Of a stretch of DNA of 64,000 nt, positions 8,869 through 12,188 are shown piece by piece. Made by a program: the position numbers and the translations under genes. Within the stretch, counting starts at the first letter, position 1; each line of letters starts with the position of its first letter. Source of the stretch: Zhongshania aliphaticivorans (GTDB taxonomy: Bacteria; Pseudomonadota; Gammaproteobacteria; Pseudomonadales; Spongiibacteraceae); assembly GCF_902705855.1 (NCBI RefSeq), contig NZ_CACSIJ010000001.1:375657-439656 (forward strand), read 5' to 3'. The notes beneath the pieces are model-generated. The model was not told where the DNA came from. It worked only from the letters and a program-made list of their open reading frames with translations, and ran no database searches.

Positions 8869-9477
8869 ATGACTGACATTCGCTTTGATCTCATTATGAC
8901 TGGCAATCTCGCATCTGGTGTATCGCGGGAGGTCGCCATCAGTAAACTTGCTACGCTATTCAAACGCCCGCCAGAACAGGTCGGAAATTTGCTTAGCGGT
9001 AAGGCCAGCCGTATTCGCAAAAATCTCAGTCAAGCGGAGTTACAGCGCTATCGAGATGCGTTTAACAAAATTGGCGTGATCACCAAAGCCTTACCGTCGT
9101 CTACTGTCACGACCACTGAAAACGTAACCGCTCACTCCAGCGTTTTATCACTGTGTCCTAACGGAACGCTGGTGCTAAGTGACGACGAGCGCCAGCACCC
9201 TCCTGTCGCGGCACCTGACACGGATCATATAAGTGTTGCAAATGTCGGCGAATCTTTAAACGATGAACATTCTGCACCACCGCTGCCAACACCAGACATC
9301 GGCCACATTAGCCTTGCTCCTGCCGGAGAGGATTTATTATCGTCACCCACGTCAGGGCCTGTAATAAAACCGCAGATCGCTCATTTAAGTCTTTGCGGTG
9401 TAGGAACACCGCTATTAGATTCAAAGCCAGAAATTAAGTATCGGCCGCCTAAAACTGACCACTTAGAACTACAGTGA
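8869..9477 (+). CDS. protein of unknown function with a repeated PxxxHISLxxxGxxLL tail
   Basis: I do not recognise a named function. With the ATG at 8869 the protein has 202 residues; ATG 8842 and TTG 8833 in the same frame are alternatives, and none has a clear ribosome site. Residues 4-75 look like a compact domain (FDLIMTGNLASG..., LATLFKRPPEQVGNLLSGK, LSQAELQRYRDAFNKIG) resembling the short N-terminal module found before RDD, Yip1 or other membrane domains in gammaproteobacteria. The rest is low-complexity and built from about four copies of a 22-30 residue unit, clearest at 116-130, 142-157, 168-183 and 194-202, with the consensus P-x3-H-I/L-S-L-x3-G-x2-L-L. No membrane segment or signal peptide is present. 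It ends 3 bases before the convergent histidine kinase gene. Confidence 0.65.
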   Translation: MTDIRFDLIMTGNLASGVSREVAISKLATLFKRPPEQVGNLLSGKASRIRKNLSQAELQRYRDAFNKIGVITKALPSSTVTTTENVTAHSSVLSLCPNGTLVLSDDERQHPPVAAPDTDHISVANVGESLNDEHSAPPLPTPDIGHISLAPAGEDLLSSPTSGPVIKPQIAHLSLCGVGTPLLDSKPEIKYRPPKTDHLELQ

Positions 9478-9480
9478 CAT

Positions 9481-10860
9481 TCAGCTTCCCCTCGGAAATC
9501 TCAATATCATTCGCAGACCAGGATTATTATCTTTTAATTCAATATAACCATCATGCAGGCGCACAACCGCTTGCACTAAACTCAAGCCCAAGCCATTCCC
9601 AGGGTGCCGGCTGCGACTGTGCTCTACGCGGAAAAAACGCTGAAAAACCCGTTCGCGATCTTCCTCTGGTACACCAATACCGCTATCAGCCACTTCTATA
9701 CGTACGACACCACTTTCAACGGCTAAATTGACCTGCACGCGACCACCTTCTGGCGTGTACTTAATGGCGTTATCTACCAAATTTGCGACAGCTTGAAACA
9801 ACAAATTGCGATCGCCATAAAAGCTACCAACCTTTGCCAAACCGGTATGAAAGCTCTGCTCTTTTTCGGCGGCAAGTGGTTCATAGAGTTCGATCACATC
9901 AGACACTAAGGTGCATAAATCCACTTCAGCAAAGCCGGAGCGACGATGCCCAGTCTCTACTTGAGCAATACGCAGCAATGCACTAAAGGTTCCCAATAAG
10001 CCATCAGCCTCATCGATTAACTGCTCCAATTGCTCGCGATTAGTGGTGTCTTCGCAATTGTCGTGCAAATCGCTCAGCTTATTTCTAAGCCGGGTTAGCG
10101 GAGTACGCAGGTCGTGAGCGATATTGTCTGACACCTGCCTGACGCCCGTCATTAAGGCCTCTATGCGGTCCAGCATTTGGTTCACGCTTTCAGATAAGCG
10201 CAAAAAGTCACCACTACTGGAATGGGTTTCAATGCGCTCAGACAAGTCGCCGGTCATAATACGGCGCAGGGTAACGTTAATATGCTCAACTCGTCGCAGG
10301 GTCAGCGCGGCAACTATGGCGCCGCCAATGGTGCCGAGTAGTATGGTGGCCACCATACTACGTGTTAAGGCGCCGCCCACTAATTTAGTGCTATTTAAAA
10401 CATCGGCATAGTGACGGGCGACTAGCACGTGTTCGCCGCCGGCCAATTGACGCGAGCGCGCCACAAACTCGGTGCCAATTGAGTCTGGTACGTTGGTTAA
10501 GGATTCAAAACTAAAGCCCAGCCAGCCGTCACGATACTCTTCGCTGTCGGGCCACTCATCGAGATTACCGGCAATTTTGTTTAGATTTTCATCACCCACA
10601 AAATAAAAGAAGCGAATCAATCGATCTGGACCGCTATGAATCTTTACAAATTCATCAACCGCCGCCTCGCCACCGCTCTCATAAGCCTCGCTTAAATCAG
10701 ATAATTCACTTTTAACTGAGTGATGTACCTCAGCAAAAAAGTCGTAGGCGATAAAAGCATAGATAAGCGCCAACACCAAAAACACGGCCACACTAAGCCA
10801 TGCAACGTAACTGACCAAGAATCGGAAGGTAAAGCTGGTGAAAATTTTACTGAGAATCAT
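9481..10860 (-). CDS. membrane sensor histidine kinase
   Basis: A 459-residue kinase with membrane segments at about 15-37 and 166-188 flanking a ~130-residue periplasmic sensor region. A HAMP linker (about 189-241) follows, then the HisKA domain with the phosphorylated His249 in NIAHDLRTPL, and an HATPase domain with NLVDNAIKYT (N box), DSGIGV (G1) and GNGLGLSL (G2). The gene starts inside the 3' end of the response regulator gene, overlapping it by 14 bases, so translation is coupled. The sensor region has no motif that reveals the signal. Architecture matches the PhoQ/QseC/CzcS-like EnvZ-type kinases. Confidence 0.93.
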   Translation of the reverse strand: MILSKIFTSFTFRFLVSYVAWLSVAVFLVLALIYAFIAYDFFAEVHHSVKSELSDLSEAYESGGEAAVDEFVKIHSGPDRLIRFFYFVGDENLNKIAGNLDEWPDSEEYRDGWLGFSFESLTNVPDSIGTEFVARSRQLAGGEHVLVARHYADVLNSTKLVGGALTRSMVATILLGTIGGAIVAALTLRRVEHINVTLRRIMTGDLSERIETHSSSGDFLRLSESVNQMLDRIEALMTGVRQVSDNIAHDLRTPLTRLRNKLSDLHDNCEDTTNREQLEQLIDEADGLLGTFSALLRIAQVETGHRRSGFAEVDLCTLVSDVIELYEPLAAEKEQSFHTGLAKVGSFYGDRNLLFQAVANLVDNAIKYTPEGGRVQVNLAVESGVVRIEVADSGIGVPEEDRERVFQRFFRVEHSRSRHPGNGLGLSLVQAVVRLHDGYIELKDNNPGLRMILRFPRGS

Positions 10861-11699: not shown

Positions 11700-12188
11700 A
11701 TGAATAATATAAAAAATGCTTACGCCTGCCTTAAACACTGTTTAAGTAAAATACACTATTTGGTCATAGTGGCCTGCGGCCTATTGCCATGCTCCGCATT
11801 TAGTAGCGACTGGGGCACAAATACTATGAACGATGTAACAGTAGCTAAATCCCAGAAGCTGAACTACCGCCCTACCATTAGTTTTTGTATAGAGCGCGAT
11901 GAAACCACGGGTAAATTCCATGCTTTCAATACCGATCAAGCTCGCTTTAACCGCGTTTGGATGGAACAAAACTCTGCCAAACATGGCAGCCTAGCGACCA
12001 AGGAGCTGATCAAAATGGGTTTTAAGGCGCTATATAAATCTTTTTATAAACGCAGTGCCGGCGCCAAACGCTTTCTTCCCGATGAAGAGGGTCGGGTTGC
12101 GGTATCGAATTATAGTGATTACAAAACCGACTACAGCGTTCACCTTAGCCGTGATTCGCTCACCTTTGGGCTTGCTATCGCCTTTTGA
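11700..12188 (+). CDS. secreted hypothetical protein
   Basis: A 162-residue protein that I cannot assign to a family. Residues about 17-36 (IHYLVIVACGLLPCSAFSSD) form a signal peptide preceded by a positively charged stretch, so it is probably exported. The mature part has a basic central helix (KELIKMGFKALYKSFYKRSAGAKRF), an SDYKTDYSVHLSRDSLTFGLAIAF end that looks like beta strands of a periplasmic or outer-membrane protein, and one cysteine. A GGGAG ribosome site lies 10 bases before the ATG. It is divergent from the two-component operon, and so may be a target or signal partner of that system. Confidence 0.65.
   Translation: MNNIKNAYACLKHCLSKIHYLVIVACGLLPCSAFSSDWGTNTMNDVTVAKSQKLNYRPTISFCIERDETTGKFHAFNTDQARFNRVWMEQNSAKHGSLATKELIKMGFKALYKSFYKRSAGAKRFLPDEEGRVAVSNYSDYKTDYSVHLSRDSLTFGLAIAF

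Follow-up and report, generated by a model that had tools for sequence, protein, structure and literature searches.

An unnamed, widely conserved bacterial protein with an L7/L12-like head and a repeated-motif tail: a possible multivalent adaptor

The locus and its orthologues

The window analysed here is a 64,000-nucleotide stretch of DNA from Zhongshania aliphaticivorans. On its forward strand, at positions 8869-9477 with the stop codon included, lies a gene for a protein of 202 amino acids, and its translation agrees with that used in an earlier sequence-only reading of the same DNA. The start is the ATG at 8869, which is common to the orthologues. Two in-frame candidates lie upstream (TTG 8833 and ATG 8842), and one orthologue that is 81% identical (L006) has no ATG there. 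The protein has two parts, an N-terminal L7/L12-CTD-like domain, hereafter the head (residues 1-76, positions 8869-9096, forward strand), and an acidic tail rich in proline and alanine (residues 77-202, positions 9097-9474, forward strand), which carries a net charge of -10 and is predicted from pLDDT to be disordered. It is an unnamed protein that is widely conserved in bacteria.

With a protein query, the gene was found in 20 of the 21 genomes of the family, and the single miss is a genome that is 70% complete. Identity to the window protein is 81% in Z. marina (L001) and 61% in a further relative (L002). The 20 family sequences were aligned over head and tail (alignment A1), and a search for either or both parts gave matches at three levels: in the order, 172 of 293 genomes; in the class, 76 of 369; and in a phylum sample, 32 of 398. 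These counts take in other proteins that bear the head. With an alignment of the tail alone (A6), the matches were 103 of 194, 42 of 274 and 17 of 299 genomes, respectively. The 103 order genomes with a tail have one locus each, ten of them giving two matches that both fall within one locus; in some genomes the first-look candidates were scored in part, and a weak second copy of the tail could escape. By eye, 93 of the 103 tail loci lie at or adjoining a head match. The remaining ten were fetched; nine have head and tail in one frame, and in the tenth (L223) an unread run interrupts the gene, with head and tail on its flanks. In the class sample, 40 of the 42 tail matches share a contig with an A1 match, as judged by eye, and the other two belong to genus g174, described below. 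The sole tail match outside the class (L246) begins at a contig end, so the head region is beyond the visible sequence. Among the genomes checked, then, the tail is near-exclusive to the head-bearing protein, at one locus per genome, with few exceptions.

In P. aeruginosa the homologue is annotated as a hypothetical protein (25% identity, E 5e-10). From gene order, together with the names given to PA1037 and PA1039 in the literature, we infer that it is PA1036. One study (PMC3922391) places PA1037 (yicG) and PA1039 (ychJ), along with PA1038 and PA1040, in a single growth-impairing antisense insert, and another (PMC10519970) lists mutations in PA1038; the passages concerned do not mention PA1036 in either paper. 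One P. aeruginosa locus (L184, NZ_CP131792.1 456166-468711) comes from the record of an 847-kb conjugative plasmid that carries rmuC-quiP-...-dinG. We take this stretch to be chromosomal in P. aeruginosa, and its presence on the plasmid may be either a captured chromosome segment or a matter of assembly.

Gene neighbourhood was compared across 42 loci. An RDD gene lies within four genes in 17 of them, from eight families, and lptF/lptG are also near in 15. In the window the RDD gene was confirmed, as were LptF/LptG, an M17 peptidase, HolC and a valyl-type tRNA synthetase. Pseudomonadaceae loci have neighbours other than those of the RDD-containing loci. In 31 of 41 loci the gene and its downstream neighbour converge, and in 27 of 42 the gene diverges from the one upstream, which argues that it is mostly its own transcription unit; these orientation counts rely on a simple ORF caller and some of the neighbours are doubtful. 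We considered RDD and lptF-lptG as operon partners and rejected them, because the gene faces a kinase-like gene in 15 of the 17 RDD loci and other families have other neighbours, as expected of an inherited position and not of a shared function. RDD is found both as a neighbour and as a fusion partner of the head (L170). This double occurrence is suggestive of a link, with the orthology of the two RDD proteins putative.

Two smaller features of the neighbourhood are worth recording. In the window, three bases separate the end of the gene from the end of a convergent histidine kinase gene (9477-9481), and in several relatives the 3' ends of the gene and its convergent neighbour overlap by 8-16 bases or so. 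A gene at 11700-12188 on the forward strand encodes a 162-residue protein whose start is signal-like and which has no match in Pfam; in 8 of the 42 loci it is conserved close to the genes for the response regulator and RDD.

The sequence-only reading had known no named family with this tail. That stands for the tail and for the protein as a whole, since no family in Pfam, NCBIfam or PHROG covers either, but the N-terminal module does have recognisable kin in the L7/L12 CTD. Stray family matches to FKRP_N (E 0.17 and 0.066) and MciZ (0.088) were judged to be chance, as were zf-IS66 (E 8e-4 in 1 of 20 tails) and phrog_21588 (E 0.0029 to L105). Among PDB sequences, a designed helical repeat protein (0.0033) and the RAD23 UBA domain (0.029) were likewise judged to be chance, and both are in conflict with the predicted strands. 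A phage origin was also rejected: a search of 50,697 phage records gave no match, and the viral contigs scanned contained no relative. A literature search, with most subscription papers outside its scope, found nothing on the protein, the tail motif or the head-domain family. The head fold and multivalent motif tails as a kind are already known. The motif, the combination of head and tail and the family itself, all unnamed in the libraries searched, appear to be new.

The head and its relatives

AlphaFold2, run with three close sequences, places residues 1-80 at block pLDDT values of 84-95. The predicted elements are strands at residues 6-14, 47-53 and 70-76 and helices at 20-31, 35-42 and 55-68, the b-a-a-b-a-b fold of the L7/L12 CTD (PF00542, 1ctf), and the head modelled alone gives the same elements (mean pLDDT 82.5). 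In a Foldseek search of the PDB the first rank was the L7/L12 CTD 1ctf (E 3.1e-3 and 2.2e-3, probability 1.00), with no chain at E<=0.001 for the head model. VIA-align, which re-scored only the chains found by Foldseek, superposed the head on 1ctf with Z 9.1 and an rmsd of 1.9 over 68 residues. L7/L12 chains ranged from Z 9.8 down to 6.3 and ClpS chains reached 8.9 (9ayn_A, rmsd 2.6 over 75), so the head shares its fold with both; ClpS works in principle as an adaptor domain. The penicillin-binding-protein fold (Z 6.1-6.4) was dropped, as it scores lower than the L7/L12 and ClpS chains, except for a single L7/L12 chain at 6.3.

Profile comparison separates these two relatives. We gathered 85 distinct N-domains from 79 loci at E<=1e-3, and hhalign related them to 20 L7/L12 CTDs with a probability of 96.7% and a score of 48.7, against maxima of 22.7 for 200 column shuffles and 19.9 for 11 neighbour families, and 10.5 for the reversed alignment. 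The 18 family N-domains alone, which include that of the window and form the profile (A2) of an unnamed L7/L12-CTD-like family, reached 84.4%, and the 42 domains of the orthologue set 95.2%. In contrast, ClpS (PF02617) was related to the head at 1.2% (score 13.7, with a maximum of 17.7 for 100 column shuffles); L7/L12 itself did no better against ClpS (0.1%). PF00542 gave no match to the window protein in the Pfam scan, and weak matches in 2 of the 18 members (best E 4.4e-4) and 3 of 30 in the head-bearing set.

Short motifs point to a separate lineage as well. A helix motif of the L7/L12 CTD, LK[ED]AK, for which we assume a role in binding GTPases, occurs in 20 of 20 L7/L12 sequences and in none of the 85 N-domains. 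By eye, in the alignment of head and L7/L12, the K/R positions of NKVxVIKAVR, which presumably bind translation factors, are mostly lost. ND[DN], which we assume to be the motif of the ClpS N-degron pocket, is found in 17 of 17 ClpS sequences and 0 of 85 N-domains. Since LK[ED]AK and ND[DN] are absent and there is no profile relation to ClpS, the head is neither L7/L12 nor ClpS. It is a separate, diverged branch of the L7/L12-CTD group. The arrangement differs too: in L7/L12 the domain is C-terminal, whereas here it is N-terminal and followed by a motif tail.

The same head opens other proteins. Among 30 scanned from hand-picked loci, it precedes DUF898 (three), AIM24 (three), DUF805 (three) and RDD (two) regions, and further types are M48, kinase, pilin, TM2, bPH_2 and zinc ribbon; three more head-bearing proteins are BPSS1780-type. 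In the DUF805, RDD, DUF898, AIM24/TIGR00266 and BPSS1780 proteins the N-domain is alike by HMM, while the C-terminal parts differ, often with a zinc ribbon, and the tail profile matches none of them. The strong PHROG match of one such protein (L169) falls on its DUF805 part. The head domain itself had no entry in Pfam or NCBIfam that we could find; at L141-L179 it forms an unnamed N-terminal part of DUF805, RDD, DUF898, AIM24, BPSS1780 and M48 proteins, and an entry in Pfam may be warranted. A search of the window's own genome with the A1 profile found no second head at E<=10. At that sensitivity, therefore, the partner of the tail there is not another head-bearing protein. A 28-residue head-like match in this genome (E 0.39) and a tail-like one (E 0.017) both contain stop codons and were dropped, and a tail-like match in a 1008-residue frame (L164) was judged to be chance on reading.

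The repeated tail

The tail is repetitive, as the sequence-only reading had proposed. Its best ungapped self-match scores 120 at an offset of 26 residues, a value reached by 0 of 2000 shuffles (mean 23, maximum 53). That reading counted about four units. Repeat units there are, but by eye they number five, the last of them a half-unit. Unit 1 spans residues 89-103 (HSSVLSLCPNGTLVL, positions 9133-9177, by eye) and is followed by a conserved E107-R108; in this region P97, G99, V102, L103, E107 and R108 are invariant across the 20 sequences of A1. Unit 2 (residues 116-130, PDTDHISVANVGESL, positions 9214-9258) scores 33.2 bits with the unit HMM and unit 3 (residues 142-157, PDIGHISLAPAGEDLL, positions 9292-9339) scores 22.8. 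Unit 4 (residues 168-183, PQIAHLSLCGVGTPLL, positions 9370-9417), which stays below 5 bits, was recognised by eye and from the 26-residue self-match, and the C-terminal half-unit (residues 194-201, PKTDHLEL, positions 9448-9471) by eye; all five are on the forward strand. The hydrophobic positions of the core, at residues 93, 121, 147, 173 and 199, are 28, 26, 26 and 26 residues apart. With two of its five units at or above 5 bits in the unit profile, the window tail is a diverged example of the array. A fixed pattern also finds two units in it, a count that 14 of 5000 shuffles reach. We looked for a direct DNA repeat within the gene and found none, which argues that the repeat is maintained at the protein level and is not the product of recent slippage.

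Relatives make the unit clearer. Repeat profiles and repeat counts, both of which had been suggested as checks on the repeat, were applied to 54 tails (those of the 42 loci plus a further 12 of the family). A profile built on 44 seed units found 169 units, compared with 0-2 per shuffle over 20 shuffles. In a hold-out with the profile seeded by 15 units, all from the family of the window, 115 units were recovered in the 35 tails that belong to other families (0-1 in each of 20 shuffles), with at least two units in 32 of the 35. Scored units vary from 1 to 6 per tail, and unit and spacing are constant: 103 of 115 spacings are 25-28 residues, another 11 are roughly twice that (50-54) and the last is 24. 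A half-unit closes the tail in 41 of 54 by pattern, against a shuffle expectation of 0.28.

The core motif is D-[TIV]-S-x-[LI]-S-[LVIM]-A-x2-G-x2-[LIVM]. The consensus of 136 aligned units is [PIV]-D(98%)-[TIV]-S(73%)-x-[LIF]-S(81%)-[LVIM]-A(72%)-x2-G(99%)-x2-[LIVM], in which the values for D and G are inflated by a seed pattern that demanded D or N, plus G. Histidine occupies the first x in 39% of these units and the window's own cores are VLSL, HISV, HISL, HLSL and HLEL, so the core of HIS or HLS is not invariant, contrary to what had been stated. The core itself is kept in other gammaproteobacterial families; orthologues with no conservation of it had been named as the case that would speak against the repeat, and that case does not apply. 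A general phosphorylation motif centred on the T of DTS was considered and rejected, as T is replaced by I, V or L in about one third of the units.

Conservation over 20 family sequences is 0.61 for the core, 0.64 for the head and 0.37 for the spacer. Between the window protein and L001, Ka is 0.107 for the core and 0.233 for the spacer, and Ka/Ks is 0.204 and 0.207, with 0.079 for the head; with equal Ka/Ks in core and spacer, this pair gives no sign of stronger purifying selection on the core. About 26% of the tail is proline plus alanine and 16% is D plus E, with few aromatics, and the net charge ranges from -4 to -33 in 54 orthologues. AlphaFold2 gives the tail a pLDDT mostly below 50 (37-49 in ten-residue blocks over residues 81-202, from a three-sequence alignment). 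The tail is a conserved, regularly repeated short motif in a region predicted, from a shallow alignment, to be disordered, and in its predicted disorder, regular motif and variable copy number it resembles multivalent short-linear-motif tails. The proposed lack of a membrane signal was borne out: by 19-residue hydropathy the window protein has no membrane-like stretch (maximum 1.09), and among the 54 orthologues the maximum is 1.73. In one genus, near-identical units of the form PPPPPPDTSHLSAAETGTDxLEGVES occur in L247 (G509:C150), with similar ones in L124, and the array there has probably expanded recently.

The exceptions in genus g174 (G356 and G492) show the unit on another protein. There the tail match falls in a 625-residue protein (L244:340-2217, reverse strand; L245:2183-4060, forward strand) with two tail units in its first 80 residues and one hydrophobic segment further on; the units of L244 were scored by local profile search and those of L245 were read by eye. 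The gene follows genes that, judged by eye on their sequence, are cca- and pyrE-like. We found no head and no Pfam match in this protein, and in neither genome did the tail search yield an L7/L12-like protein with a tail. The head-bearing proteins fetched from them, three from G492 and two from G356, are all without the tail and by eye have hydrophobic segments. Units on a protein without a head indicate that the unit is portable and separable from the head.

A possible multivalent adaptor

The explanation that we favour, at a probability of roughly one half, is that the protein is a soluble cytosolic adaptor. The L7/L12-CTD-like head would dock a first partner, and the acidic, unfolded tail would display five short linear motifs about 26 residues apart, each copy of which would bind one copy of a second partner. 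Being multivalent, the protein would tether or cluster its partners. Re-use of the head on DUF805, RDD, DUF898, AIM24, M48, kinase and pilin-like proteins is what a docking module would be expected to show, and the two units on the headless g174 protein fit a portable motif. A variable number of units with a constant unit and spacing resembles multivalent motif arrays. The core is nearly as conserved as the head and the spacers are less so, and an unfolded, acidic tail rich in proline and alanine is predicted beside a folded head. Weighing against an adaptor, the disorder comes from AlphaFold2 with three close sequences, only two of the five window units score with the unit profile, and Ka/Ks is equal for core and spacer in the comparison with L001. 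Gene context offered no partner, as its neighbours change from family to family and it mostly stands outside operons. We infer that the tail would be disordered in the cell, that its motifs would bind protein and that clustering would be the purpose. The interaction scaffold suggested by the sequence-only reading would be compatible with these features.

The charges of the two parts raise another possibility. Across 54 proteins the head is positive in 49 (mean +3.6) and the tail negative in all 54 (mean -14.7), and with this asymmetry head-tail binding is possible. The tail motifs might bind the head of their own molecule or of a sister one, for instance as an extra strand on the three-stranded sheet of that head, leading to autoinhibition or a chain of molecules. 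Head and tail share a single ORF in nearly all genomes checked, and with no other head detected in the window's own genome, a head-binding tail could bind only its own kind there. However, charge complementarity is common for disordered tails, the low-pLDDT tail of the AlphaFold2 model gives no sign of docking, and the unit outside a head protein in g174 needs a partner in trans, although heads do exist in those genomes. We regard such self-assembly as rather unlikely. A wider form of the same idea, that the head is a receptor for the D-T-S-x-L-S-x-A-x2-G-x2-L motif within an undescribed gammaproteobacterial domain-motif interaction system, seems improbable. If it were true, the single-copy tailed protein would be a multivalent hub bringing together inner-membrane proteins that bear the head (DUF805, RDD, DUF898 and AIM24 types). 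In lineages such as genus g174, head and motif would have come to lie on separate membrane proteins, and in the window's own genome, where only one head was found, the protein would work by self-assembly.

Other readings concern one part of the protein. The head might bind translational GTPases as the L7/L12 CTD does, with the tail keeping or releasing it. The profile relation of 96.7% and the best fold match, to 1ctf, are consistent with this, but the complete absence of LK[ED]AK, the poorly kept K/R positions and the presence of the head on membrane-family proteins make a link to translation very unlikely. It is also doubtful that the tail is a folded, solenoid-like repeat instead of a chain of motifs. 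Its period is very regular, at 25-28 residues; however, its composition of proline, alanine and acidic residues with few aromatics, its low pLDDT, its less conserved spacers, its variable unit number and the half-unit at which most arrays finish argue otherwise. We hold it to be similarly doubtful that the tail is a non-binding acidic spacer that has drifted into repetition. The composition is typical of spacers and the equal Ka/Ks of one pair agrees with drift, but the core is conserved across families at a fixed spacing, DNA repeats are lacking, and the unit is portable, as the g174 protein indicates.

The gene is found once per genome wherever the tail is detected in one large order (103 of 194 sampled genomes). 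Identifying the ligands of the head and of the motif would give a handle on the many uncharacterised membrane-family proteins that share the head.

One of the head-bearing proteins repeats the head itself. A 650-residue protein at L141:2378-4330, forward strand, has four tandem heads, then a different motif, present three times (GKANFLSDAD or similar), and then a hydrophobic segment.
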